Notes under the pieces: model-generated
What the model was told of the DNA's origin: nothing
The model's database searches: none
Seen by the model: the letters and a program-made list of their open reading frames with translations, nothing else
Translations under genes and position numbers: made by a program
Shown here: positions 4,245-18,596 of the stretch, in pieces
Numbering within the stretch: position 1 is the stretch's first letter
Layout: every line of letters begins with the position of its first letter
Assembly (NCBI RefSeq): GCF_000739435.1
Contig: NZ_CP009159.1
Location: 1,984,001 to 2,048,000, forward strand
Source: Actinobacillus suis ATCC 33415
Lineage (GTDB): Bacteria > Pseudomonadota > Gammaproteobacteria > Enterobacterales > Pasteurellaceae
Length of the DNA stretch: 64,000 bases
Direction: 5' to 3'

Positions 4245-6428
4245 TTAGTGCTGCTGTGAATAGAAATGTTCTTTATTCACCAGTGCCTGAAGTTGAGGTA
4301 ACAGCTGCACAATCAAACGCAATTGTTGTGTTAACACCAAGGCTAATCTGTCTTCTCCGGCTTGATTTGCAATTTCAAATTGATTTAACGCCTGATCTAT
4401 GTCCGCTAGCTGTTGCTCAATATGCGCACCGCTAGCTTTCGCATAAGTCATTTCATCTAAAACCTTCACGACTTTTTTACCTTGGCTAAAGAAAATGGCG
4501 GAAAAATCAATATGATGATTCAGTTCATGACTTTCTACCCGATAAGCACCCAATGCGGAAATATAACCCAACAACGTATAAGTTACCCCCAATAGGGTCG
4601 GGGCAAAATGCAGCGCATTTTGATATTTTTGCGGCTCGCTGTGCATATTTGAAATCACCGCACTCAACGCTGAAATATGATTATGTACGTCTCGGCGTGC
4701 CACTCGATAGCCAAGCTGATCGTTATAACCGAATTGCAGCTGCGCCAAAATATGGCGTAAATATTGCCCGCTTGCTTTCAGCGTATTCTGTAGATTTTGA
4801 TGTAAATTTAAATATTTCCAGTCCGGATAAATAAACGAAACCGCCAACCACGCAATTGCCGTGCCTAATAGTGTATCGAACAAGCGAGGCAATAACGCAT
4901 TTTGTGCGCCTAAGCCCGCCACATCTAGGCTCACAAACACCAACAGCGTAATAAAAAAGGTGGAAGAGCCGTAATTGCTTACCCTAAAAAAGTAATACAA
5001 ACTGCCGGTTAAGGTAATTAGCCCTAATTGTGCTTCCAAACTCGGTGAAAAATATTGGAAACAATAGCCGACAACCACCCCGAGCATTGTTCCAATCACT
5101 CGCTGAATTAAACGTTTTTTGGTGGCGGAATAATTCGGCTGACAAACAAAAATCGCAGTCAGCAAAATCCAGTAGCCTTTGTTATCTAAGCCGGATAAAA
5201 ACACCAGTAAACTACAAGCGAATACCACTAACGATAAACGTAACGCATGACGAAATAGCTGTGAAGAAAGCGTACATTGGCTGCGAATTGCCGAAAACAT
5301 ATTGCGTAAACCTGAGACATTTTCCGCCGTTAAGCGGGCGGATTTGGCAAAATCTTTGCGTAAATTATCTACTGATGTCTGTTGCTCAATTTGGCTTAAT
5401 TGCCCTTCAATATTGCGTAAGTTCTCGGCAATTGATAGCCAACGATGCGCACTATGTAGCCCTCTTGCCTGATGATAATTCAATGAATTCAACAAACCTT
5501 GTAGCGCTTTCTCGCCCCGCACACTGTGTTGATAGCTCTCTCGATGACGCAGCGCTGAAGCGATTCGTTGGCAAGCTATCGCCTGAAGTTCCATCACTCG
5601 CTGAAACCGGAACATTAAATCGCTATTGCTGAGTTGTTGAAAAAGTTCATGGTATTGATAATGACTGGAACTTGCGCGTTCTAAAATATCTTGTGCAGTA
5701 AAGTAATAGCGCAATAAACGGCGGGTGCGAACATGGCGATGTTGCCCTTGTAAACGATAAAACAGTGAAACTCGAGTTTGGTCGAAAGCCGCCATCACTT
5801 GCTGATTTGCCTTTGCCAACGCCAATTGCTTAGCCGGCAAATCATCATCGTCCGGATCAAAATATTCTGATTTTGCCTGTAAATAAGCGGCTAACGCATC
5901 ATACGCTTTCGCTAAGTTTTCCTGCACCAAACGATTCGGAAAACATAAATGCACGACAATACTGACCAGCCCATATAACAGCGCACCGGCTAAAATCATT
6001 AACGGACTGCCGTACCAACTATCGTCTGCGCTGTAGGTTAGGCAAGTATAAACCGACACAATTAACGTGCCGAAAGCAATCGTACTATAACGCTGCCCAA
6101 TCGCCCCCAACATCACTAATGCAAAAGTACTAACCATTGCCACCGGCAAAAACAACCAACCTACACTGAGCGACCACTGCGCACTCAAAGTGGATAACGA
6201 AAAAGCGACTAAACTCAGCGCTAAATTCTTTACTCTGCCGGTTAAACTGCTATCTAAATCTACTAAACCGCCGGCAATTACCCCCAGCACCAATGGCATA
6301 GCAAGATGTGACATCTGTAATTGCCACACCACAACCGAAACAAGGTTTATCGCAATAAAGATAGGGAACGTTTTAATAATATTTTCCGACAACCAGTCGG
6401 TTTGAATCTTTTTGAATAGGCTTTTCAT
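4245..6428 (-). CDS. yccS: YccS-type inner-membrane protein (FUSC family)
   Basis: 727 residues, the size of E. coli YccS. There are two blocks of about five to six transmembrane helices (about 20-170 and 395-535), each followed by a soluble region. This is the architecture of the FUSC/aromatic acid exporter family. Motifs such as DNKGYWILLTAIFVCQPNYS followed by RLIQRVIGTMLGVVVG, at the start of the second membrane block, are hallmarks of the YccS/YhfK group. The biological role of this group is unsettled; efflux is inferred from homology. The gene stands alone, bounded by USS pairs on both sides. Confidence 0.85.
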   Translation of the reverse strand: MKSLFKKIQTDWLSENIIKTFPIFIAINLVSVVVWQLQMSHLAMPLVLGVIAGGLVDLDSSLTGRVKNLALSLVAFSLSTLSAQWSLSVGWLFLPVAMVSTFALVMLGAIGQRYSTIAFGTLIVSVYTCLTYSADDSWYGSPLMILAGALLYGLVSIVVHLCFPNRLVQENLAKAYDALAAYLQAKSEYFDPDDDDLPAKQLALAKANQQVMAAFDQTRVSLFYRLQGQHRHVRTRRLLRYYFTAQDILERASSSHYQYHELFQQLSNSDLMFRFQRVMELQAIACQRIASALRHRESYQHSVRGEKALQGLLNSLNYHQARGLHSAHRWLSIAENLRNIEGQLSQIEQQTSVDNLRKDFAKSARLTAENVSGLRNMFSAIRSQCTLSSQLFRHALRLSLVVFACSLLVFLSGLDNKGYWILLTAIFVCQPNYSATKKRLIQRVIGTMLGVVVGYCFQYFSPSLEAQLGLITLTGSLYYFFRVSNYGSSTFFITLLVFVSLDVAGLGAQNALLPRLFDTLLGTAIAWLAVSFIYPDWKYLNLHQNLQNTLKASGQYLRHILAQLQFGYNDQLGYRVARRDVHNHISALSAVISNMHSEPQKYQNALHFAPTLLGVTYTLLGYISALGAYRVESHELNHHIDFSAIFFSQGKKVVKVLDEMTYAKASGAHIEQQLADIDQALNQFEIANQAGEDRLALVLTQQLRLIVQLLPQLQALVNKEHFYSQQH

Positions 6429-6433
6429 AGGCT

Positions 6434-6490
6434 ACAAGCGGTCGAATTTATGCAAAAGTTTGCAAATTTTAAAGCAAATTCAACCGCTTG
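6434..6490. repeat. Facing USS pair upstream of yccS
   Basis: ACAAGCGGTC and CAACCGCTTGC face each other about 35 bases apart, with TGCAAA repeats between. The pair is upstream of yccS and before the thrC promoter region; because it does not follow a stop codon closely it is better described as a paired uptake signal than as a terminator. Confidence 0.5.
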
Positions 6491-6640
6491 CAAAAGAGAA
6501 TGGCGAGATATTTCTTTGTGCATTACCTAAGCGGTGAAGATTTTAAAAATTTGCGCAAATAATCACGCCTTTTGCATTGACTAACGGAGGATAATGGCTA
6601 GAATCAGATAAATCACTCTTAATATAAAGGACCCATCCTA

Positions 6641-7921
6641 ATGAACTTATACAACATCAAACATCCCGAAGAACAAGTTAATTTTGCACAAGGCGTGCGC
6701 CAAGGTTTAGGTAAAGATCAGGGCTTATTTTTCCCTGAAGTGTTACCAAAATTTGACGATATCGAGGCGTTACTCGATTTACCTTTAGTTGAGCGCAGTC
6801 AAAAAATTCTTACGGCACTGATTGGTGAAGAGCTTCCGCAAGAAACGGTAAATGCGATGGTAAAAAATGCGTTTACCTTCCCGGCACCGCTCACAAAAGT
6901 GAATGACGACATTTATGCACTTGAGCTGTTCCACGGCCCGACATTGGCGTTTAAAGACTTCGGCGGTCGTTTTATGGCACAAGCACTGGCAAGCGTGCGT
7001 GGTGACGGCAAAATTACCATTTTAACCGCAACCTCAGGCGACACCGGCGCAGCAGTTGCACACGCATTCTACGGTTTAGAAAATATCAATGTGGTGATCC
7101 TTTATCCAAAAGGCAAAATCAGCCCGTTACAAGAAAAATTATTCTGTACCTTAGGTGGTAACATTCGTACCGTTGCGATCGAATCGGACTTTGACGCTTG
7201 CCAAGCGTTAGTAAAACAAGCGTTTGACGATGCCGAATTACGTCAAGCGATCGGCTTAAACTCAGCAAACTCAATCAATATCAGCCGTTTATTAGCGCAA
7301 GTTTGTTATTATTTTGAAGCGGTAGCGCAATTACCGAAAGAAAAACGTTCAGATGTTGTGGTTTCTGTGCCAAGCGGTAACTTCGGTAACTTAACAGCAG
7401 GTTTAATCGCAAAAACCTTAGGTTTACCAATCAAACGTTTTATCGCATCAACTAATGCGAACGACACCGTGCCACGTTATTTAAAATCAGGCAAATGGGA
7501 ACCGAATGCGACGGTTGCGACCCTGTCAAATGCAATGGACGTAAGCCGCCCGAACAACTGGCCACGAGTGGAAGAATTATTTAAACGCAACGGCTGGGCG
7601 CTAACCGATTTAGGTTCGGCGGCATTAAACGATGCGGAAACCGAAGCGGCATTAAAAACACAATATGCGGAAGGTTACTTATGCGAACCGCACGGTGCAA
7701 TCGCTTACCAAGTGTTAAAAGATCAGCTTCAAGCAGGTGAAACCGGTATTTTCCTCTGCACCGCTCACCCAGCAAAATTCAAAGAATCGGTAGAGCGCAT
7801 TTTAGAGATCGAATTACCACTACCGGAAGCGTTAGATAAACACAATAAAATGGAATTGTTATCTGACACCATGCCGGCAGATTTCGCAAAATTACGTGAA
7901 TATTTATTAGCAGGTAACTAA
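6641..7921 (+). CDS. thrC: Threonine synthase
   Basis: Converts O-phospho-homoserine to threonine using pyridoxal phosphate, the last step of threonine synthesis. 426 residues, the size of the E. coli enzyme. The PLP lysine is about residue 105 in GPTLAFKDFGGRF; TATSGDTGAAVAHAF and SVPSGNFGNLTAG bind phosphate and cofactor. The ATG follows AAAGGA. No thrA or thrB is adjacent and no leader peptide of runs of Thr/Ile codons was seen, so the usual attenuated thrABC operon is not present here. Confidence 0.96.
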   Translation: MNLYNIKHPEEQVNFAQGVRQGLGKDQGLFFPEVLPKFDDIEALLDLPLVERSQKILTALIGEELPQETVNAMVKNAFTFPAPLTKVNDDIYALELFHGPTLAFKDFGGRFMAQALASVRGDGKITILTATSGDTGAAVAHAFYGLENINVVILYPKGKISPLQEKLFCTLGGNIRTVAIESDFDACQALVKQAFDDAELRQAIGLNSANSINISRLLAQVCYYFEAVAQLPKEKRSDVVVSVPSGNFGNLTAGLIAKTLGLPIKRFIASTNANDTVPRYLKSGKWEPNATVATLSNAMDVSRPNNWPRVEELFKRNGWALTDLGSAALNDAETEAALKTQYAEGYLCEPHGAIAYQVLKDQLQAGETGIFLCTAHPAKFKESVERILEIELPLPEALDKHNKMELLSDTMPADFAKLREYLLAGN

Positions 7922-7940
7922 TCTATTTAGCTTAAACAAG

Positions 7941-7987
7941 CGGTAAGTTTCTGAATGAATTTTGTCATTCAGACTTACCGTTTTTTT
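7941..7987 (+). terminator. Rho-independent terminator after thrC
   Basis: A long stem (CGGTAAGT...CTGAATGA pairing with TCATTCAG...ACTTACCG) is followed by a run of seven T. The left arm begins inside an ACAAGCGGTA uptake-like word. Confidence 0.85.
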
Positions 7988-7998
7988 ATGGAGAAAAT

Positions 7999-8337
7999 AT
8001 GAATAAGTGGTTCAAAAATCTAATCTCATATAGTGAATTTCATTGTAATAAAATGCCAAACTGGTTAAAGGTTATTTTTGCTGCAATGATTTCAGGAGCA
8101 ATTCTATTAAACCCAAAATCTTTTGTAGAATTATTAGATTTAAATTTTGAGGACGTTAAAACACTTAATAGCTTTTGGACAATATTTACTTTAATTGCTT
8201 CTGCACCAGTCGCTTTTATTATTTGGCATTTTCGAGATCAAAATATATCTCAACAAATTGAAAATGCTCGTAAGGATACTAACTTAAAAGAATTTCAGAA
8301 ATTAGAGAATCCTGACTGGTTAATTACGTTTGAGTAA
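7999..8337 (+). CDS. Small membrane protein, probably an N-terminal remnant of a longer protein
   Basis: 112 residues. Two hydrophobic helices (about 24-42 and 57-76) are followed by a polar segment, IWHFRDQNISQQIENARKDTN then LKEFQKL. This arrangement, two helices followed by an RD.N...Q.EN.RK..NL.EFQ.L helix, is seen at the N-terminus of longer membrane proteins of unknown function, so this copy may be cut short at its C-terminus. GGAGAAAAT precedes the ATG. Base composition is more AT-rich than thrC. It lies at the left border of the accessory region, and the repeat-laden spacer starts right after its stop. Confidence 0.55.
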   Translation: MNKWFKNLISYSEFHCNKMPNWLKVIFAAMISGAILLNPKSFVELLDLNFEDVKTLNSFWTIFTLIASAPVAFIIWHFRDQNISQQIENARKDTNLKEFQKLENPDWLITFE

Positions 8338-8364
8338 AAAGATCTTTATTATCAAGAGTATTAT

Positions 8365-8399
8365 GATAGCCCCCACATCCCGACGGATGTTGATAATTA
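8365..8399. repeat. Short dispersed repeat, copy A
   Basis: Begins GATAGC, contains CATCCCGACGGATG, a small hairpin, and ends ATAATTA. The segment at 10222-10256 has the same outline (GATAGC, C-rich, CCCGAC, TAATTA) with several substitutions. Confidence 0.5.
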
Positions 8400-8415
8400 A
8401 TTGAAATATAAAAGC

Positions 8416-8433
8416 CTCCCACTGAAGTGGGAG
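8416..8433. repeat. Perfect small hairpin
   Basis: CTCCCACTGAAGTGGGAG is an 18-base perfect palindrome. On the minus strand it is followed by GCTTTTAT. Small G/C-rich hairpins of this sort occur at the ends of IS200/IS605-family elements, but no transposase is nearby; a leftover element end is only a guess. Confidence 0.4.
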
Positions 8434-8446
8434 TAAGATACATAAA

Positions 8447-8560
8447 GAGCCACAGCGTGGCTCAACAGGCTCGAAGAGCCCCCTAACCACGTACGGCTCG
8501 TGCGTGGTTATATGCTCAGCTAGAGCTGAAATGAAAACCACAAGCGGTCAATTCTTCAAT
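8447..8560 (+). repeat. Triple-hairpin/USS module, copy 1
   Basis: Three hairpins in a row: GAGCCAC/GTGGCTC (8447-8463), GGCTC/GAGCC (about 8468-8480), and a 10-base stem AACCACGTAC with GTGCGTGGTT (about 8485-8509, loop GGCTC). They are followed after some 20 bases by an ACAAGCGGTC uptake signal. The unit recurs at 12051 and 13342 in the same orientation, with a shortened copy at 10103. It lies between the small membrane protein and the UhpC-like gene. Confidence 0.75.
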
Positions 8561-8634
8561 AACACAAGCAAAAATAAAGGCACTCGACAGAGTCGAGCGC
8601 CATCAGAAAAAGAGCTTCTCAGCTCAATCAACAT

Positions 8635-9960
8635 TTAGCTAATCGCTTGATTTCGTCTGTTTTGCAATACAAACACTAAAACGAGTAACAACGCACAAGC
8701 TAATGAGATAATGAATAACGTGCTGAAGAAACCGTTCCATTTGAATTGTTCGATAATCAATGATAACGGTAAACCGGCAATTGCCGCACCAATATAGGCA
8801 AATAAACTCACAAAACCAGTTGATGCGCCAGATGCATATTTATGTGAGTTTTCCGCTGCCGCCATCGCAATTAAGAATTGTGGTCCAAAGATAAAAAAGC
8901 CCATCAAGAAAAATAAACTCGACATAATGAATTTATCATCACTTGGAATCAACCATAACCCCAAAGCCACCGAAATAATTCCTAACACATAAATAATGTT
9001 CATTTGTGTGCGGTTACCTTTAAAGAACTTATCGGAACCCCAACCGGCAAATAATGCCCCTAAAAAGCCCCCGATTTCAAAGAATGCGATAACCGTATTC
9101 GCTTGCAATAAATCATAATGATGGGTCTCGGTTAAATATAAATTACCCCAGTCATTAATACCGGTTCTGACGATATAAACCAAACCATAAGAAATCGCCA
9201 ACGCCCAAATGATTTTATTTTTAAAGACGTATTGTTTGAGAATTTCCCATGTGGTTAAGCCTAAGCCGTCACTTTCATGTTTTTGTTCCGCAATATCATT
9301 ACGCCACTCCCCTACGGTCGGCAGCCCCATTGAAGCTGGTCTGTCTCGCAATAAAACACACAAACCAATCCCGACAACAACCGCAATCACACCAGGAATA
9401 ATCATTCCGTAACGCCAGCCCCAGGCTAAAGTTGCCGCCCCTGCGAGTAACGGAATCACCGCTCCGCCTAAATTATGCGACGTATTCCAAATCGCCCACC
9501 ATAAACCACGCTCATTACGAGAATACCAAGTATTTAAAATTTTTGAGCATGGCGGCCAGCCCCAGCCTTGGAAGAACGCATTAATCATCCACAACGTAAC
9601 GAACATAAAAATGGAAGAACTCATCCCAAAGAAGATATTCACCAAGCCGGTTGCCATTAAGCCTAATCCCATAAAATATCTCGGATTAGAACGATCTCCG
9701 ATGACACCGGATAAAAACTTAGATACACCGTAGGTCAAATAAAACGCCGTCCCCATCATACCGATATCCGCTTTTTGCAGCCCCAAATCAGTCAACATTG
9801 CCGGCATCACAAAATTAAAACCTTTACGGGTAAAATAGAAAACTGCATAACCGACATAACTGACCAACATCAACTGTATCCGCCAATAACGATAGGTTTT
9901 ATCGATCTCCTCTTTTGTTTTGGTCACAGGAAGATCCGGCGCTTCTTTAAAAATATTCAT
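8635..9960 (-). CDS. UhpC-like organophosphate/sugar-phosphate carrier (MFS)
   Basis: 12-helix major facilitator of the organophosphate:phosphate antiporter family. 441 residues from the ATG at 9960, which has GGGAG six bases ahead; an ATG 30 bases further up lacks a good ribosome site. Segments YRYWR, GYAVFYFTRKGFN, TYGVSKFLSGVIGDRSNPRY and NAFFQGWGWPPCSKIL match E. coli UhpC much better than UhpT or GlpT as recalled. In E. coli UhpC senses glucose-6-phosphate for UhpB/UhpA; no uhpA or uhpB lies nearby, so this solo form is more likely a transporter. A CRP-like site is upstream. Most of the surrounding genes are accessory, so it may be a mobile or variably present gene. Confidence 0.85.
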   Translation of the reverse strand: MNIFKEAPDLPVTKTKEEIDKTYRYWRIQLMLVSYVGYAVFYFTRKGFNFVMPAMLTDLGLQKADIGMMGTAFYLTYGVSKFLSGVIGDRSNPRYFMGLGLMATGLVNIFFGMSSSIFMFVTLWMINAFFQGWGWPPCSKILNTWYSRNERGLWWAIWNTSHNLGGAVIPLLAGAATLAWGWRYGMIIPGVIAVVVGIGLCVLLRDRPASMGLPTVGEWRNDIAEQKHESDGLGLTTWEILKQYVFKNKIIWALAISYGLVYIVRTGINDWGNLYLTETHHYDLLQANTVIAFFEIGGFLGALFAGWGSDKFFKGNRTQMNIIYVLGIISVALGLWLIPSDDKFIMSSLFFLMGFFIFGPQFLIAMAAAENSHKYASGASTGFVSLFAYIGAAIAGLPLSLIIEQFKWNGFFSTLFIISLACALLLVLVFVLQNRRNQAIS

Positions 9961-10025
9961 TTGATACTCCCAATCAGAAAATTTACTCATCCGACCGGAC
10001 TATATATGAAAATTCACGCTAAAAA

Positions 10026-10041
10026 AGTGACCGCTATCACA
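10026..10041. promoter_or_regulatory. CRP-like operator upstream of the UhpC-like gene
   Basis: AGTGACCGCTATCACA fits TGTGA-N6-TCACA in nine of ten fixed positions. It lies 66 bases before the chosen start codon at 9960, the same distance as the site before mqo. Confidence 0.6.
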
Positions 10042-10102
10042 TTTTAATAATGTGCGAGAACAGTATTTACAGCTATTTGATTTCGCTAAAGGTTTTCACC
10101 AA

Positions 10103-10209
10103 GAGCCACAGCGTGGATTAGGAAATTCCACTGTGACTAGAGCAAAAACAGCAAGCGGTCACATTCCCCTAATATTTTGTAAATTTTTAGGAAAATTTGA
10201 CCGCTTGTT
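10103..10209 (+). repeat. Triple-hairpin/USS module, copy 4 (shortened)
   Basis: Only the first 14 bases (GAGCCACAGCGTGG) of the hairpin part remain; then GGAAATTCCACTGTGACTAG and a complete facing USS pair (GCAAGCGGTCACATTCCCC to ATTTGACCGCTTGT, 10152-10209). That pair is nearly the same as those following copies 2 and 3, including the inner AATATTTTGTAAATTTT. It separates the UhpC-like gene from the hipA/hipB pair. Confidence 0.65.
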
Positions 10210-10221
10210 TTGACATTACAC

Positions 10222-10256
10222 GATAGCGCCCATCTCCCGACAGGTGCCGGTAATTA
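10222..10256. repeat. Short dispersed repeat, copy B
   Basis: GATAGCGCCCATCTCCCGAC then CAGGTGCCGGTAATTA; shares its outline with 8365-8399. It overlaps the 3-prime end of the HipB-like gene by three bases. Confidence 0.5.
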
Positions 10257-10583
10257 TTTTAGAAAGGAATCCATCAAGTCTTTTGAAATCGGCATAAGAC
10301 CTAGCTTTAGCCCCATCGGTTTAAAAACCTGATTAATCGTTTCTATACTATAGTTTCCTTTATCATTTTCGATATTAGAAAGAGTTTGCCGAGAAACTTT
10401 CGCTAATTTCAGATAATCTTGCTGGTTTATTCCCAATGCTTCCACTCTTAATCGACGCAGTGCTTGCCCTTGGCTAATCTCACCTTTTAAGAGCTGTACT
10501 ATAATCGTTTCACGGATTAATTGTCGTTCAATGCCATTCACTTTAGAGCGCGTCGGTGAGGCATTTTTATGTTGAATCGTCAT
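10254..10583 (-). CDS. HipB-like helix-turn-helix antitoxin
   Basis: 109 residues from the ATG at 10583, whose first bases overlap the stop of the upstream HipA-like gene as ATGA, so translation is probably coupled. An Xre-type helix-turn-helix is seen at about 50-90 (INQQDYLKLAKVSRQTLSNI then ENDKGNYSIETINQVF), followed by KPMGLKLGLMP, a common HipB-like ending. By family knowledge it should bind the HipA-like kinase and repress the operon. The order is toxin first, antitoxin second, opposite to E. coli hipBA. Confidence 0.8.
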   Translation of the reverse strand: MTIQHKNASPTRSKVNGIERQLIRETIIVQLLKGEISQGQALRRLRVEALGINQQDYLKLAKVSRQTLSNIENDKGNYSIETINQVFKPMGLKLGLMPISKDLMDSFLK

Positions 10584-11911
10584 ACCAGCCCCCAACGTTG
10601 TAACTTCTCAGGTAAGTAATCAAAACCAATGGCGGGAAAATCTAAAATGCTTTTCGGAACACCTCGCTTCGTAAGTCTAGATTTTAAATCTACTAATTGG
10701 GTCGCAAGCATTCTTAATTCTCTTAACAATATATCTGGTTCAATAAGGTCAGATAAACTGTCAGCTATTTTATCAAAGCGATATTCTCCGGCGAACTCTT
10801 GAGAGTTATCTCCATTTTTAGCCCAAGTGGTCGTTCTGATAATGCCTTCCGGATCTGCCCGCATCGGAGCAAAATCATAGATAGGGGATAGCCAAATACG
10901 ATTATCATCACGTAAAAATGCAGTATTTCTGCCATGATTATCACTATTTCCAAAAGCAATATTCAACAAATCCCTTTTTACCCATTCAATAACAAAATGC
11001 CGGTTATCAAAATCATTAGAAAATTGCGAAGCTGAAATAACATTGAGTAAGTTGCGAATAGTCTGCTCATGATCAAGATTTCCACCATATTTTTGCAACA
11101 TAGAATAAACCGATTCCATAGCATATCGCTCCCATTTTCCATCTTTGAACTTCATATCGAATCTAGGTAGCCATAAAGACGGATAACGTTCCCCTTCTTC
11201 TAATTTCATTAGATCAGTATCTATAGTTGAAAACCCTAATGCACGCAGCTCATGATAATAATGATATTCAGCTCTTAAAATATCACAGTCCAACTCTGAA
11301 TAATTCCCACGAGGATATTTCACTAAATAAGCCGTATCGCAATCTAAACCTAATTGCAAATTATCAATCCAAACTTGTTTATCTTGGCGTTTAAGTAATA
11401 ACTTTGGTGCTTCTCCCCCAGCCCCGGTCGCTCCGCCTACAATAGCTCCTGTCTGATTTGCATATTCTAAAAAATCACTCTGCCTGTTTTGTACCACATT
11501 TAATGGAAAATAACGCTCACTTTGTATTTCTGGCACAGCCTCTTTAACTCGAACATTGCCGATAGGGGATATTGCGCCATTTTTTAGTAATAAGTAATTT
11601 TGATGAGAAATAGATAGGTGCTTGATATCAAGAGCTTCCAGCCAATAACGCCGACTCGCTCCGGCAGGAATAATATCGGCAAGTGTAGTCATCAGCTTAT
11701 CAGCATGATCAATAAACACATTTACAGGATAATTAATTGATATGGATCTGGCATTCGCTTGCCCAAAAAAATCGACGGCATAGTCCGTTAAATATTCCAT
11801 GCTCTCTAATTCATACTGAGCATTGAAATAAAGCTCCGCCATATCTCGCCATAAATTATCAACATAGGTCTGCAATGTTAGTTTTTTAATTTTGATTGAT
11901 ATATCACTCAT
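10580..11911 (-). CDS. HipA-like serine/threonine kinase toxin
   Basis: 443 residues from the ATG at 11911, which has AAAGGTGAAG ahead; the longer open frame upstream has no ribosome site. HipA-family marks: a glycine-rich loop GGATGAGGEAPK at 159-170; a catalytic loop GNSDNHGRN at 321-329 with Asp324 and Asn329; a metal-binding DF at 346-347 (IYDFAPM). HipA toxins phosphorylate tRNA synthetases or other targets and cause growth arrest; the target here is unknown. The gene is followed by its HipB-like partner with a 4-base overlap. There is no Ser at the place matching the autophosphorylated Ser150 of E. coli HipA by my alignment, which is uncertain. Confidence 0.82.
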   Translation of the reverse strand: MSDISIKIKKLTLQTYVDNLWRDMAELYFNAQYELESMEYLTDYAVDFFGQANARSISINYPVNVFIDHADKLMTTLADIIPAGASRRYWLEALDIKHLSISHQNYLLLKNGAISPIGNVRVKEAVPEIQSERYFPLNVVQNRQSDFLEYANQTGAIVGGATGAGGEAPKLLLKRQDKQVWIDNLQLGLDCDTAYLVKYPRGNYSELDCDILRAEYHYYHELRALGFSTIDTDLMKLEEGERYPSLWLPRFDMKFKDGKWERYAMESVYSMLQKYGGNLDHEQTIRNLLNVISASQFSNDFDNRHFVIEWVKRDLLNIAFGNSDNHGRNTAFLRDDNRIWLSPIYDFAPMRADPEGIIRTTTWAKNGDNSQEFAGEYRFDKIADSLSDLIEPDILLRELRMLATQLVDLKSRLTKRGVPKSILDFPAIGFDYLPEKLQRWGLV

Positions 11912-12307
11912 AACTTCACCTTTTTGGCTTATTTTGTATGATATATTATACAAAATAAACTTATGGAACAAGCTATAATCTAAGAGAAACAAGCTGCTTG
12001 CGGTTACATATTACTAAGTTCTAAGGATAGGAAACACAAAAAATACAGTTCCACAGCGTGGCTCAACAGGCTCGAAGAGCCCCCTAACCACATACGGCTC
12101 GTGCGTGGTTATATGCCCGGGGCTGGAGTAAAAACAACAAACAGTCAAATCCCCCTAATATTTTGTAAATTTTAAGGAAATTTGACCGCTTGTTTGCGAC
12201 AAAAATATCATTTTGATATACTTTGTCCAACATACTTGCTATGCCTATGACTGAGTTTTCTTAGTTACGCACAAATTTGCAGGTTTTTTTTACACGGAAG
12301 ATAGAAA
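11912..12307. other. Spacer between the HipA-like and Abi genes
   Basis: About 400 bases with no supported gene. The left part should hold the hipA-hipB promoter on the minus strand (AT-rich, with TATATTATACAAAATAAAC near 11939-11957, and an imperfect palindrome around TTTGTATGATATATTATACA that could be an operator). The middle holds copy 2 of the triple-hairpin module and the right part a promoter region for the Abi gene. Confidence 0.5.
12051..12194 (+). repeat. Triple-hairpin/USS module, copy 2
   Basis: CCACAGCGTGGCTC, GGCTCGAAGAGCC and AACCACATACGGCTCGTGCG continue in the same order and orientation as copy 1; the first three bases of hairpin 1 differ. It is followed by ATATGC, as in copy 1, and by a facing USS pair at 12138-12194 in which the left USS is degraded (ACAAACAGTC) and the right is intact (GACCGCTTGT). 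Confidence 0.75.
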
Positions 12308-13336
12308 ATGGGGCAATTTAATAAACCTGCAAAATCCAATCAAGAGCTTATACAACAATGGAAAACAAGAGGTTTGATTGTACCTGATGAAGCTCGTGCG
12401 GAACGTTATTTGGAACATATTAGCTATTATCGTTTTTCCGCTTATACCATTCCTTTTCAACAACTCAACAATCCAAATCATCACTTCAAGCCAAATACTA
12501 CATTTGACGATATTCTTAATCTATACATCTTTGACCGTGAATTACGTTTGCTTGTATTAGATGCGATTGAACGTATTTAAGTCTCTGTCCGTACACAAAT
12601 CAGCAATGTAATGGGAACACAAGCTCAAAATCCTTTTTGGTATATGCAAGAAAGCTATTTCAAAAAGGATTTCAATATTTATCGCTTACTCGCTCAGCTT
12701 GAAAAACAACTGGCTGAAGAACAGCAACGCTTAGAGCGTGATGAAAAACATATTCAGAAACGCTACAAAAATAATAATATCGATGAACAAGAAAGAGATC
12801 GCTTATTAAATAATGTTCGTAAAGAAAATTTCTTACGCCACTATCTCACTCAGTACAATACACCGAAATTATTACCCTCGTGGATGATGATTGAAATGCT
12901 AACTTGGGGCGAACTTAGTCATTTATATGCGGGGCTATCAGAAAAACATCAAAAACCGATTGCCAAAAATTTAGGCGTACAAGCGCCTATTTTAGAATCT
13001 TGGTTAAAAGTTTTAAATGATGTTCGCAATATCTGTGCTCATCACAGCCGATTATGGAATAGAGAATTTGGGCGCATTATTAAAACCCCAACGAGTCAAA
13101 ATACCCAATGGCTTTTATCAGCCATTAGCTTAAATAATACTCATATTAACGCAGAAAAACGCCTTTATCCGATTTTAGTCGCAATTCAAGTACTACTTTA
13201 TACCATCAGCCCAAATTCAACATGGGCAAAACGCTTGAAGGAATTGTTAGATAGTTATCCTGACATTCAGAAAGAATATATGGGTATTCCACAAAATTGG
13301 GAATTAGATAGCTTTTGGGATAAGGCTTTGAGATAA
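12308..13336 (+). pseudogene. Abi_2 (AbiD/AbiF-type) abortive infection gene broken by one stop codon
   Basis: Read through, the frame gives about 342 residues. The first part (FNKPAKSNQELIQQWKTRGL, then ERYLEHISYYRFSAYTIPF, then FDRELRLLVLDAIERI) and the second part (VSVRTQISNVMG, then NPFWYMQESYF, then LPSWMMIEMLTWGELSHLY, then RNICAHHSRLWNR) are both typical of the Abi_2 family, which protects against phage. A TAA at 12578-12580 falls in the DAIERI-E-VS-RT stretch where the family normally has Glu, so a single G to T change (GAA to TAA) would explain it. The reading frame is kept on both sides. The RNICAHH motif is an RNase-type HEPN R-X4-H motif. The second part could restart at ATG 12611, but would lack the N-terminus. 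Confidence 0.85.
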
Positions 13337-13341
13337 AAAAT

Positions 13342-13474
13342 GAGCCACAACGTGGCTCAACAGGCTCGAAGAGCCTCCTAACCACGTACGGCTCGTACGT
13401 GGTAGTGAATAACAACAAGCGGTCAAATTCCCTTAAAAACTTACAAAATATTTAGGAAATTTAACCGCTTGTTG
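13342..13474 (+). repeat. Triple-hairpin/USS module, copy 3
   Basis: Starts five bases after the Abi stop codon. GAGCCACAACGTGGCTC, GGCTCGAAGAGCC and AACCACGTACGGCTCGTACG follow as in copy 1, with about four changes in 63 bases; one change (G to A in the third stem) turns a G-T wobble into a T-A pair. A complete facing USS pair follows at 13415-13474. It probably also ends the Abi and the minus-strand papain-fold gene transcripts. Confidence 0.75.
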
Positions 13475-13492
13475 TACTTAGAATAGTAAAAC

Positions 13493-14530
13493 TCATTTCT
13501 GTTCAGTTCCGCTAGAGCTACTATTTTTGTGCTCAATTCGTATTAAAAATCGTTTCGCTGAATTGAAATGAATATTGACTAACCTAAAGTATAAGTCATT
13601 TATCAGGTAAAAATATTTTAGATTTAAATTTCTAAGCATTTTTTGAGCTTGAATATATGTTTCATAATGTCTTTTATACAAATCCCTCTGTAATTTATAC
13701 TCGGAGATAAGATTAATATCTTTAATATTCAAAAGTTTATCTAATTCATTATCATCATACCTATATTTGTTTTTAGGTATTTCAAAGTCTTCTAATAATG
13801 TTAAATATCCTGATTTCTGCAATATATCAGAGAAACATTGATCGAATTCTCTATTGTTTATAAGAAATGATTCTACATCCTGCAGAGTCAAAAATTCAGC
13901 ATTTGCTAACTTGGAACACTCATCAATTAAAAAGTTTGTACTTTTCTTTTGAACTTCTAAAAAATTTTCACTTTTTGCAAACTCAATTTCTTCTTGTGTT
14001 GCTAAATTTATACAATCATTTACACATTCAAGCTCTTGACTATTTTCAAGATCAGCGGGTGTACAAATTTCAGCCTCCTGAACTAAATTTATTCCCGCAT
14101 CTTTAAATGCTAAAGCTACTAACTTTGAACAAAATTGTTTACGATCATCATCAGTAATAAAAGAAATCTTAGTTCCAATTGCCAATAATGTAGAATATGG
14201 TGTTCCAATTTTACTCCTTACACTAGAAACTATCCTATCAATATAAGGAGTAATATCTTTTTTATACCTTAATACTTTAACATCACTAGGTTGTTTATAT
14301 AGCGTCCTCTTTATATTATTGGAATGAACGCCATCAGACAACGCTTCAATACAAGAACCTTGACTCCAACAAATTTTAGCATGTGAGTATTGGCTGTTTG
14401 TTGCAAGTTTTATACCATTCGAATACCATGAATCCCCAGATTCTAATATAATATCCCCTTTTTTCAGTTTAGCAATGTCCAAGATATATAGCTTTTCATC
14501 TTCTTTAAATGTTATTTTTTGTTTTACCAT
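13493..14530 (-). CDS. Papain-fold (NlpC/P60 or YiiX-type) protein with an unknown helical C-terminus
   Basis: 345 residues, strongly AT-rich. Residues about 20-165 show the marks of the permuted papain-like group: LKKGDIILESG, YSHAKICW with the likely catalytic His, IEALSDGVH, SKIGTPYSTL, and KQFCSKLVALAFKDAGI with the likely catalytic Cys. Such proteins cleave or transfer amide or acyl bonds in peptidoglycan, lipids or proteins. Residues about 190-345 are helical, rich in Asn, Lys and Leu, and unlike anything I recognise. There is no signal peptide, so it probably acts in the cytoplasm. The AAGGGAATG before the ATG is somewhat distant. Placement beside HipA and Abi genes hints at a defence role, which is inference only. 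Confidence 0.65.
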   Translation of the reverse strand: MVKQKITFKEDEKLYILDIAKLKKGDIILESGDSWYSNGIKLATNSQYSHAKICWSQGSCIEALSDGVHSNNIKRTLYKQPSDVKVLRYKKDITPYIDRIVSSVRSKIGTPYSTLLAIGTKISFITDDDRKQFCSKLVALAFKDAGINLVQEAEICTPADLENSQELECVNDCINLATQEEIEFAKSENFLEVQKKSTNFLIDECSKLANAEFLTLQDVESFLINNREFDQCFSDILQKSGYLTLLEDFEIPKNKYRYDDNELDKLLNIKDINLISEYKLQRDLYKRHYETYIQAQKMLRNLNLKYFYLINDLYFRLVNIHFNSAKRFLIRIEHKNSSSSGTEQK

Positions 14531-14645
14531 AAATATATTTTCATTCCCTTATGAGGCTTTTACTTATTCTAATAAAAACATGAGATAAATATTAACAAAA
14601 TGTAAAAAGTAAATACTATTAAATACAGAATCAAATAAGGACAAC

Positions 14646-14678
14646 AAAAAGACAACCACCTTCCAGCAGTTGCCTTTT
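14646..14678 (-). terminator. Terminator after purL
   Basis: Read on the minus strand: AAGGCAAC pairs with GTTGTCTT (one G-T pair) across a TGCTGGAAGGTG loop, followed by TTTTT. It sits about 20 bases past the purL stop. Confidence 0.65.
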
Positions 14679-14699
14679 CTTTTATTAACTTACGCTTGG

Positions 14700-17600
14700 C
14701 TATTTAAGTGCCACTCTCGCATTTCTAAACAATCTCATCCACGCCCCATCTTCGGTCCAGTCTTCTGGATGCCATGAGTTGCTGACTGCGCGGTAAACAC
14801 GTTCCGGGTGTGGCATCATGATAGCTACACGTCCGTCTGTGTTTGAGATTGCGGTGATGCCGTTTACCGAGCCGTTCGGGTTAGCCGGGTAAACTTCGGT
14901 CGGTTGTAAGTTGTTATCGATATATTGTGCGATCACAAGTTTCTGTTCGGTTAAGCCGGCAAGTTGTTGTGCCGATTTGAATTCTACTTGACCTTCACCG
15001 TGTGAAACGGCAATCGGCATATGTGAACCCGCCATACCTTGGAACCAATGGCTGTTGGTTTCGTTGATTTTCACTAAACCAACACGTGCTTCAAAGCGTT
15101 CCGACTTGTTACGCACGAAACGAGGCCAGTTTTCTGTACCTGGGATAATTTCCGCAAGGTTTGAAACCATTTGGCAACCGTTACACACACCTAATGCAAG
15201 CGTATTCGGGTTGGCAAAGAATTGGCTGAACTGTTCACGCAACATTGGGTTGAATAAAATTGATTTCGCCCAACCACCGCCTGCACCGAGTACGTCACCG
15301 TAAGAGAAACCGCCACACGCCACTAACGCATTGAAATCTTTAAGGTTTCTTCTACCCGCCATTAAGTCTGACATATGTACGTCAATCGCATTAAAGCCGG
15401 CACGGTCGAATGCCGCCGCCATTTCGTAATGACTATTTACGCCCTGTTCACGCAAGATAGCAATAGTCGGTTTCACACCTTTATTGATAAACGGTGCGGT
15501 AATATCTTCGTTAACATCATAGGTTAAGAAGGTTGATAAACCTTTGTTGTTCGGGTCTTTTTTGGTTTCAAACTCTTGATCCGCACATTCCGGATTATCA
15601 CGTAAACGTTGCATTTGGTGGGTTAATTCTGCCCAAATTCCACGTAATTCCGAACGTTTTTCGTTAAGAAGTTTGAGGCTGCCACGGCTAATCACAAAAC
15701 GATCGTCTTCGTGTACCGTACCTAAATCTTTGGTTAAGCCCAATAAGTTATGTGCATTTAACACTTCACGTACACGCGCTAAATCCGCATCTTTTACTTG
15801 AATAACCGCACCAAGTTCTTCGTTGAACAATACTGCTAAATCATCATCACCTAACGCTGAAATATCAATCTCTACGCCACAGTTGCCGGCAAACGCCATT
15901 TCCGCAAGCGTGGTAATTAAACCACCGTCTGAACGGTCGTGGTAAGCAAGCAATTTGTCTTCCGCCACTAAAGTCTGCATTGCATTAAAGAAGTTTTTGA
16001 GGCTGTCTACATTCACAACGTCCGCCGGTTTGTCACCGAGTTGTTTGTAAACTTGCGCTAATGCGGTTGCACCTAAACGGTTTTTACCTTCACCCAAGTC
16101 GATTAATAATAGGCTTGATAAGCCTTTATCGGTACGTAATTGTGGGGTAACGGTTTTACGCACATCTTCCACACGAGCGAATGCCGAAATCACTAATGAA
16201 AGTGGTGCAGTTACCGATTTTTGCTCGCCATTTTCTTCCCACGTAGTGCGCATTGACATTGAGTCTTTACCTACCGGAATCGTAATGCCTAACGCCGGGC
16301 AAAGTTCTTCACCAACTGCTTTTACCGCTTCATAAAGACCGGCATCTTCACCTTCGTGACCTGCTGCCGACATCCAGTTTGCCGAAAGTTTAATACGTTT
16401 TAATTCACCGATATTGGTCGCCGCGATATTGGTGATCGATTCTGCCACTGCAAGGCGTGCAGACGCACCGAAATCTAATAAAGCAACCGGCGCACGTTCG
16501 CCCATCGACATTGCTTCACCGTGGTAGCTGTCTAAACTTGCCGTAGTTACCGCACAGTCCGCTACCGGAATTTGCCACGGGCCAACCATCTGATCTCGTG
16601 CCACCATACCGGTTACCGAACGGTCACCAATGGTAATTAAGAAGGTTTTTTCTGCGACAACCGGTAAACGTAACACACGATGTAGTGCTTCTTTTAATTG
16701 GATTTGTTGGCTATCAAGCGGTTGATTTTCAACCGTTTTTGACGAAACATCACGGTGCATTTTCGGCGTTTTACCGAGTAATACGTTCATTGGTAAATCA
16801 ATCGGGTTATTGTCGAAATGATCGTCCTTAAGCGTTAAATGTTTCTCTTCAGTCGCTTCACCGATCACTGCAAACGGCGCACGTTCACGCTCACATAATT
16901 CGGTAAATAATGCTAATTTTTCCGGCGCAACCGCTAATACATAACGTTCTTGTGATTCGTTACACCAAATCTCTAGTGGTGACATACCTTTTTCGTCACA
17001 TAAAATTTTACGTAAATCGAATTTACCGCCACGATCGCCGTCGTGGACTAATTCCGGCATTGCGTTAGATAAACCGCCTGCACCTACGTCGTGAATAAAT
17101 AGAATCGGGTTGTCTTCGCCTAGTTGCCAACAGCGGTCGATCACTTCTTGGCAACGGCGTTCCATTTCCGGGTTTTCACGTTGTACCGAAGCAAAATCTA
17201 GATCTTCTTTTGATTTACCGGAAGCCATAGACGAAGCCGCACCGCCGCCTAAGCCGATGTTCATTGCCGGACCACCAAGTACGATTAATTTCGCACCGAC
17301 CGGAATTTCGCCTTTTTGCACGTGTTCGGCACGGATATTACCGATACCGCCTGCGAGCATAATCGGTTTGTGGTAGCCACGTACTTCTTCGCCGGCAAAG
17401 CTATTTACTTTTTCTTCATAGGTACGGAAATAGCCTAATAATGCCGGACGACCAAATTCATTGTTAAATGCCGCACCGCCTAATGGGCCTTCGATCATAA
17501 TATCGAGTGCCGAAGCGATACGATTCGGTTTTGAAAGCGGGTTTTCCCACGGCTGTTCAAAGTTTGGAATCACAAGGTTAGACACCGAGAAACCGGTTAA

Positions 17601-18596
17601 ACCTGCTTTTGGTTTTGCACCGCGACCGGTTGCACCTTCGTCACGAATTTCACCGCCTGAACCGGTTGCTGCGCCCGGGAATGGCGAGATCGCAGTCGGG
17701 TGGTTATGGGTTTCCACTTTCATTAAGATATGTGCATCTTCTTGGTGCGCACGGTATTGACCGTCTTGATCCGGGAACCAACGACCGACTTTCGAACCTT
17801 CCATTACCGCCGCATTATCTTTATAAGCTGAAAGCACGTAATCAGGCGTTTTCTCGAAGGTGTTTTTAATCATTTTGAATAATGATTTTTCTTGTTTTTG
17901 ACCATCAATCGTCCAATCCGCATTAAAGATTTTGTGACGGCAGTGTTCTGAGTTCGCTTGTGCAAACATATAAAGTTCGATGTCGTTCGGGTTACGATTT
18001 AAAGCAGTGAAATTTTCCACTAAATAATCAATTTCATCATCCGCTAACGCTAAACCTAAGTTCACGTTCGCTTCTTCTAACGCTTTACGACCGCCATTTA
18101 AAATATCTACGGTGGTAAATGGCTTCGGCTCCTGTTGAGCAAATAAATTTGCCGCTTGCGCTTCGTTATCTAACACCGTTTCTAACATACGGTCGTGTAA
18201 TAAACCTTTTAAGGTTTCGATTTGTGCTGCTGTCGGCTCTGCGCTGAATTCAAAATAGTAAGCTAAACCACGTTCGATACGATTTACCGCTTGTAAGCCG
18301 CAGTTGTGTGCAATATCGGTCGCTTTTGAAGACCATGAAGAGATGGTACCGATACGAGGGGTCACAATTAAGCAAAAACCGGTCGGCTCGTGTTCGGCAA
18401 GAGTCGGACCGTAATGTAAAAGCTCTTTAATTTCAGCGGTTTGTGCTGCGCTAAGTTCAGCATTTAAATCGACAAAATGCACATATTCCGCATAGACCGA
18501 TTTTACCGGTAACGCATTTTGTTGGAATTTAGTTTGGAATTGGTTAAGACGAAATTCAGAGAGGGCAGGAGAGCCACGAAAGGTTTGTACAGTCAT
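14700..18596 (-). CDS. purL: Phosphoribosylformylglycinamidine synthase
   Basis: Large single-chain FGAM synthase of de novo purine synthesis: converts FGAR, glutamine and ATP to FGAM. 1298 residues, the usual size for gammaproteobacteria. Visible parts: N-terminal PurS-like region; [17 protein letters not shown] and [20 protein letters not shown] of the first synthase half; the second half with ISVG-type [11 protein letters not shown]; and a C-terminal glutaminase with [16 protein letters not shown] and GVCNGCQM (nucleophile Cys) and MPHPERVYR (His, Glu region). A PurR box lies upstream and a terminator downstream, so it is its own unit. Confidence 0.97.

Follow-up and report, generated by a model that had tools for sequence, protein, structure and literature searches.

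REP-like hairpin repeats in Actinobacillus suis and a probable IS200-related transposase partner

Background

The closest described relatives of the repeats reported here are the repetitive extragenic palindromes (REPs and REPINs) and their TnpAREP transposases, known as RAYTs or, with their repeats, as REPtrons. Our repeats appear as hairpin modules between positions 8447 and 13474 of a 64,000-nucleotide stretch of the Actinobacillus suis ATCC 33415 genome (the window, taken at its full length), in the interval between thrC and purL. With REP systems they share short intergenic palindromes, inverted pairs, and a single-copy, repeat-flanked Y1 transposase gene at a fixed position; they differ in an enzyme that is, by its motif, of the IS200-related subclass 1.2, in a unit of two hairpins and in the lack of a GT[AG]G foot. 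A sequence-only reading of the window had described the modules as three hairpins followed by an uptake signal sequence (USS), peculiar to this region, and had proposed that they serve the swapping of cassettes by transformation, form a small mobile element or act as strong transcription barriers.

Other described systems resemble the present one in part. TIRtrons, with their TIRYT enzymes, comprise Y1 genes whose flanking repeats are unlike GTAG REPs, some of them self-complementary and multi-copy, according to PMC3733652. A Y1 gene flanked by non-GTAG repeats is found here too, but TIRYTs are described there as keeping the motifs that separate RAYTs from bulk IS200, whereas our protein scores with IS200, a comparison made by description. 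A term search of PMC3733652 for five Pasteurellaceae genera found none mentioned. The genes for TnpAY1 proteins of class 3 and subclass 2.6 are likewise accompanied by atypical hairpins that also have copies in the genome, but the Y motifs of these proteins, YV[VI][AENY]EQ and YIH[QN]NP, differ from the YIKNQKEHH of subclass 1.2 (PMC6006769). For subclass 1.2, Table 1 of the same survey gives that motif, the entry 'no' for REP and a range of Cyanobacteria and Bacteroidetes, and the text describes a low copy number and a general absence of typical IS200 end structures. IS200/IS605 insertion sequences (IS) offer a related transposase and hairpin ends, but here the gene is single-copy, the repeats rather than the gene are dispersed, and gene and ends do not form one multi-copy unit. 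In Neisseria, REP clusters and minimal mobile elements are presented as exchange points in PMC2649163; variable cassettes, a naturally competent group and repeats as likely exchange points are common to both cases, but here several internal repeats split the region, the outer genes vary and a probable transposase exists. We found no report of REP-like repeats for subclass 1.2 or for Actinobacillus in searches of one open library or in PMC6006769.

Results and discussion

A genome-wide repeat family

Judging from the sequence comparisons below, we consider it likely that the window modules are solitary half-units of a dispersed, non-autonomous family of REP/REPIN-like repeats, with a subclass 1.2 Y1 transposase as its probable mover. 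A 63-base unit is present in three full copies on the + strand, at 8447-8509 (M1), 12048-12110 (M3) and 13342-13404 (M4), and a degraded fourth unit lies on the same strand at 10103-10134 (m2). The sequence-only reading had placed full copies at 8447, 12051 and 13342, all in + orientation, and a shortened one at 10103, and all four are recovered, with a model start of 12048 for the second full copy. Allowing up to 3 mismatches, a 32-base core of the unit matches the window 3 times and none of 100 shuffles. Each full copy holds three hairpins, GAGCCAC/GTGGCTC, GGCTC/GAGCC and CCACGTACG/CGTGCGTGG, as described earlier; in M3, the first hairpin carries mutations in its left arm. The degraded unit retains the first hairpin in part only. 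All window copies are solitary, corresponding to the right half of a full element alone, with no inverted partner.

A BLAST search with one unit reached 14 places in the window's genome (G000, a single contig of 2.5 Mb). Since BLAST linked the window copies to elements in the his operon only weakly, covariance models were built. The first model, R1, was derived from 16 units, among them units that flank the transposase gene described below, and is partly circular for that reason; a second model, R2, was therefore built without them, from 17 window-type units of the purL side and other loci, where the lists of open reading frames (ORFs) show no such transposase (locus L120 being unlisted). M1, M3 and M4 are among the training sequences of R1 and score 77.8 bits (E 3.4e-20), 64.5 bits and 75.1 bits, respectively, and m2 scores 10.3 bits (E 0.26). 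At E<=0.1, R1 detected at least 31 units in G000 among the best 150 of 483 candidates scored, many in inverted pairs and many beside core genes. With the same threshold, R2 detected at least 27 places among the best 150 of 523 candidates scored, 3 of them being its own training units. It recovered all four units abutting the transposase gene, with E values from 1.6e-7 to 2.8e-6, and gave 59 matches (E<=0.05) in 30 loci carrying homologues of that gene.

The units are predominantly intergenic: 27 of the 30 with a locus lie outside predicted ORFs of at least 120 aa. Ten unit neighbours, which we picked ourselves and not at random, were scanned, and nine could be named as core or housekeeping types: valine-tRNA ligase, a copper-type P-type ATPase, uracil-DNA glycosylase, HslU, ribonucleotide reductase beta, argininosuccinate lyase, HisF, methionyl-tRNA formyltransferase and HisC. 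The module is not confined to the thrC-to-purL region, as the BLAST and R1 counts show. The wider family is genome-wide and the window subtype is concentrated at the thrC/UhpC-purL locus. By the sequence-only reading's own account, genome-wide copies with no link to accessory genes would refute it; the wider family is of this kind, whereas the window subtype is concentrated here.

Eight full elements could be aligned. They measure about 105 to 140 bases and consist of a terminal hairpin, an inner hairpin, a spacer, an inner hairpin, in some cases a small hairpin, and a terminal hairpin, the two sides being in inverted order. The half-unit is accordingly made of an inner and a terminal hairpin, between which the window type has a small third one. 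Covariation was calculated on 35 two-hairpin units from the homologue loci, picked by R1 and hence leaning toward structure; 98.2% of the cells pair and 106 cells are changed on both sides. The covariation score was reached by 0 of 500 shuffles, and 25 to 39% of the cells pair when the partners are slid.

A Y1 transposase gene in the his operon

Four matches to Y1_Tnp were obtained in G000: two IS200 copies, a class-2-like gene (L018) and a gene between hisC and hisB, where the match spans 2470012-2470359. The latter gene (G000:C1:2470006-2470443) is present as a single copy, encodes a product of 146 aa and has a full element on both sides. Its protein scores 74.5 bits with the NCBIfam model transpos_IS200 (cut-off 55) and 27.1 bits with REP_Tyr_transpos (cut-off 80), and its Y motif reads YIKGQKEHH; by this score and this motif it is not of the TnpAREP (class 2) type. 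The solved structures that it matches are IS-type transposases, 2 of 6 rows being named ISHp608 or ORFA. The two true IS200 copies of G000 are 27% identical to it and have different ends. From the motif and the IS200 score, rather than from a tree, the protein is probably an IS200-related HUH (Y1) transposase of subclass 1.2. The published trait of this subclass, neither IS ends nor REPs, does not describe what we see here, paired hairpins standing beside the genes.

Two other assignments were discarded. Canonical REPs were rejected on the missing GT[AG]G foot and on an enzyme that is not of class 2, and an IS on the single copy of the gene and the position of 29 of the 30 homologue loci by his genes. 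The family works like a REPtron, from which it differs by the enzyme class and the two-hairpin unit. The remaining Y1 gene, L018 (G000:C1:2132498-2132758), has the class-2-like motif YIEHNP and lies between inverted copies reading GTAGGGGCGGGTCC..., an arrangement that suggests a canonical GTAG REPtron coexisting with the present family in G000.

Association of repeats and gene across genomes

All comparisons were made with one genome per species. Among 140 Pasteurellaceae genomes, 70 match the transposase protein at E<=1e-5. Sorting by hand assigned 47 of them to a homologue of at least 50% identity, some broken or partial, the remainder being IS200-like at 24-31% identity. Scoring the best 38 candidates per genome, R1 found units in 56 of the 140 genomes and at least 5 units in 34, of which 28 have a homologue (Fisher test over the 140 genomes, 1.4e-11, without kinship correction). 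One genome, G115, has 31 R1 units and no homologue at E<=1e-5. A sample of 197 genomes from the order gave 5 matches, all from this genus or family and none outside the family.

We read 30 homologue loci (L049-L078), the best Pasteurellaceae matches. All 30 loci have stems of at least 6 no more than 180 bases from one or both gene ends, 26/30 have them at both, and an R1 or R2 match is adjacent in 25/30. Per kb, 13.7 stems occur close to the genes and 2.8 further away. All 30 proteins carry the motif Y..Q..HH, as do 33 of 33 in a scan of named genomes, though NYIKGQKE served as the search pattern there. Twenty-nine of the loci adjoin a his gene and the remaining one (L060) lies beside an HslU-like gene. 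The his neighbours are hisB, hisA or hisI-like, at varied joints of the his operon. In Nicoletella semolina (G102, L050/L145), which belongs to another genus, the homologue is 99% identical to that of G000 and occupies the same hisB position, which suggests a recent transfer.

The named-genome scan yielded 38 loci. Seven are from Pasteurellaceae (Nicoletella semolina at 99%, a Mannheimia, Actinobacillus minor, Lonepinella, A. vicugnae, Avibacterium and an A. capsulatus fragment) and 31 are others at 41-51% identity, by title nearly all Bacteroidota. Omitting three fragments, we counted stems of at least 7 in 28 non-Pasteurellaceae loci; their density is 7.1 per kb close to the genes and 0.70 at a greater distance, compared with 0.35 in shuffled sequence. 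At least one flanking stem is present in 25 of these loci and stems at both ends in 19; the loci without any are L150, L169 and L172. The repeat flanking the gene matches 35 places in one Bacteroidales genome. The extension beyond Pasteurellaceae is provisional, relying on the hairpin count and on the repeats of one genome. The locus from that Bacteroidales genome, L167, shows tandemly arrayed hairpin units with a GCATAAC/TTATGC linker at 1280-2180, on either side of a subclass-1.2-like gene. A GCATAA/TTATGC linker was considered as a guide sequence and abandoned as too uneven, being found in 8/33 named-scan loci and, with looser variants, in 24/30 Pasteurellaceae loci.

Signs of mobility and relation to USS

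Twenty copies of the element were fetched from genome G041. They are much alike at unrelated places, and in 16 the left terminal hairpin has its core preserved. The outer inverted arms TCAGA....TGACA / TGTCA....TCTGA match by pattern in 9/20 (L125-L144). G041 has only a distant homologue of the G000 transposase.

At the site between the dnaE-like and lptG genes, the congeners G001, G003, G004 and G005 (congeners being numbered G001-G008, with A. capsulatus as G002 and A. vicugnae as G008) carry an element ending in a window-type unit, and the flanks are adjacent without an element in G006 and G008. The element is also missing from G000, where the right flank is found at a distance of 6.4 kb, and the two flanks are widely separated in G002 and G007. 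Among the three earlier proposals, a small mobile element therefore fares best, the family being dispersed, tied to a Y1 transposase and found at an occupied and empty site.

The USS core was counted within 100 bases downstream of each unit, with one mismatch allowed. It was found at 7 of 30 units: all 3 full copies in the window have it, as do 4 of the 27 others; two others have an upstream USS. A facing USS pair stands at the dnaE-like/lptG site in occupied and empty sites alike. The USS is not a constituent of the repeat family, because only 4 of 27 other units have it and the pair stands without a unit at the empty site. In the window, the supposed facing pair is present after m2 (10151-10209) and M4 (13415-13473), while M1 is followed by a single core (8540-8549, + strand) and one arm of the pair after M3 (12137-12194) is degraded.

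Variable genes at the repeats

Gene content differs between species on the right of equivalent units. Where G000 has m2, a full unit is found in G002, G003 and G007. To the right of this UhpC-side module lie hipBA in G000 and G002, a 300-aa ORF without Pfam family in G003 and unrelated, partly masked sequence in G007. Similarly, the Abi 3' end is followed by a unit in G000, G002 (Abi tail only), G004 and G006; next to it come a C92 gene in G000, a DUF6037 gene in G002 and G004 (99% alike) and a 262-aa ORF plus a GmrSD_N gene in G006. On the right, purL is present in the six genomes where it was reached; on the left, UhpC is found in four and a different operon in two, the cassettes varying in between. 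Abi has a different operon on its left in G004 and G006, and in G001, G004, G005, G006 and G008 other genes follow thrC. Homology of G004 to the Abi segment starts at 12136, at the USS pair right after M3. The right flanks of G006 and G007 were examined as one shared cassette and rejected as such, the BLAST overlap covering about 120 bases at the module side (the second palindromic repeat described below) and one 34-base stretch.

The same left flank leads through the module to different genes in different species, and we regard homologous exchange at the repeats as the most probable origin of this pattern. In G003, the only unit combines a UhpC-side left flank with an M4-like right spacer, which fits recombination between M2 and M4 with loss of the intervening genes; insertion histories fit too. 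The idea of swapped cassettes has partial, comparative support in the differing genes to the right of the same modules.

In the mechanism that we propose, the his-operon protein would act, now or in the past, by spreading single-stranded copies of the units, a mode put forward for REP systems. Its chemistry would resemble that of IS200/IS605 and TnpAREP, with cleavage and rejoining of single-stranded hairpin copies. A single subtype that had settled next to USS pairs at the thrC/UhpC-purL locus would have multiplied together with these. The near-identical copies could then act as short homology blocks, at which ordinary recombination would remove or exchange accessory genes; the DNA involved may have come in by transformation, a route suggested by the USS alone. 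More generally, subclass 1.2 Y1 proteins may move their own two-hairpin REP families in Pasteurellaceae and Bacteroidota, and in competent Pasteurellaceae the USS-adjacent REPs may be exchange points for small defence or accessory cassettes; we put this generalisation forward tentatively, holding it slightly more doubtful than not.

Weighing the explanations

The earlier idea of a dedicated cassette-exchange unit, made of hairpins and USS, draws on the different genes found right of the same module flank (in four and four genomes) and on the G004 Abi homology beginning at 12136. We regard it as unlikely, given the USS counts at the other units, the USS pair without a unit at the empty site, the core or housekeeping names of nine of the ten scanned neighbours, and a comparison limited to one genome per species. 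A little less likely still is a role as transcription terminators or RNA 3'-end hairpins, for which the units would have been retained; they would then adjoin the transposase gene only because the his operon is rich in such repeats. Their intergenic position and the several units between other his genes would suit this, and terminator-like sites do occur on the - strand at M1 and M4, the interval 7800-14700 holding 10 against 4.6 in shuffles. The notion of a strong transcription barrier can be retained to that extent for these two copies; it does not suit M3, which lies between divergently transcribed genes. Terminators would also leave unexplained the inverted pairs of near-constant plan, the hairpins flanking the gene beside hslU (L060) and in Bacteroidota, and the scattered near-alike copies of G041. 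It is very improbable that the units are decayed ends, or miniature inverted-repeat transposable elements (MITEs), of an ordinary IS200/IS605 insertion sequence moving together with its gene: the NCBIfam assignment to transpos_IS200 and the IS-type structures are in line with such an origin, but one gene copy faces at least 31 units in G000, 29 of 30 homologues sit by his genes, and the two true IS200 copies are only 27% identical and have other ends.

A REP/REPIN-like family with a subclass 1.2 mover remains the reading that we favour, and several observations weigh against it. No GT[AG]G tetranucleotide was seen at a constant stem-foot position on reading the aligned units. The window subtype is only partly like the units beside the G000 transposase gene, R1 being partly circular and the BLAST link weak. 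R1 finds no unit in 16 of the 47 genomes with a homologue, and the homologue is missing from 6 genomes that have at least 5 units, one of them with 31 units; the Fisher value, as said, ignores kinship. As 29 of the 30 loci lie by his genes, their shared location could inflate the flanking count. At the dnaE-like/lptG site, loss may explain the pattern as well as gain. Finally, the cassette breakpoints are few, and the homology of G006 to the Abi segment starts at 12229, off any module.

With this reading, a repeat without a name is assigned to a family spread across the genome and to a probable partner gene; a likely job also emerges for a transposase group that the main survey lists with neither IS ends nor REPs. 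If true, it would be a REP system whose enzyme is nearer to IS200 than TnpAREP is, so that the step from insertion sequence to host-kept repeats becomes comparable. It also yields a hypothesis, open to testing, on the turnover of small cassettes (toxin-antitoxin, Abi, GmrSD-like and others) at a single site in naturally competent bacteria of one group.

Genes and minor features of the locus

The thrC-to-purL interval holds five gene features. Threonine synthase, encoded by thrC (6641-7921, + strand; NCBIfam TIGR00260), forms the left border and is followed by a 112-aa ORF (7999-8337, +) with no Pfam or NCBIfam match. Next come a UhpC-like transporter of the major facilitator superfamily (8635-9990, - strand; NCBIfam 663.9 bits, cut-off 564) and a pair formed by a HipB-like helix-turn-helix protein (10254-10595, -; Pfam HTH_3) and a HipA-like protein (10580-11992, -; Pfam HipA_C). 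The hipA-like and Abi genes diverge around M3. The Abi_2 gene (12308-13336, +) is split into ORFs 12308-12580 and 12611-13336 and has an unbroken relative in G004; M4 lies immediately 3' of its stop codon. A C92 papain-like gene (13493-14530, -; Pfam Peptidase_C92) precedes the right border, purL (14700-18596, -; NCBIfam), which encodes phosphoribosylformylglycinamidine synthase. The UhpC-like, hipA/hipB, broken Abi and papain-fold genes named from the sequence were all matched.

Scanning 6000-16000 with Rfam (E up to 1) produced 5 matches, all well short of the curated cut-offs, and three of them fall on the USS pair at 10142-10213. M1 is followed by a fourth hairpin, TCAGCTAGAGCTGA (8514-8529, + strand), preceded by the linker TATATGC. 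A second palindromic repeat (GATAGC..CCGTCTCCCGAC..) stands beside the modules at 8370-8410 and 10228-10256 of the window, and also after units in G002, G006 and G007.

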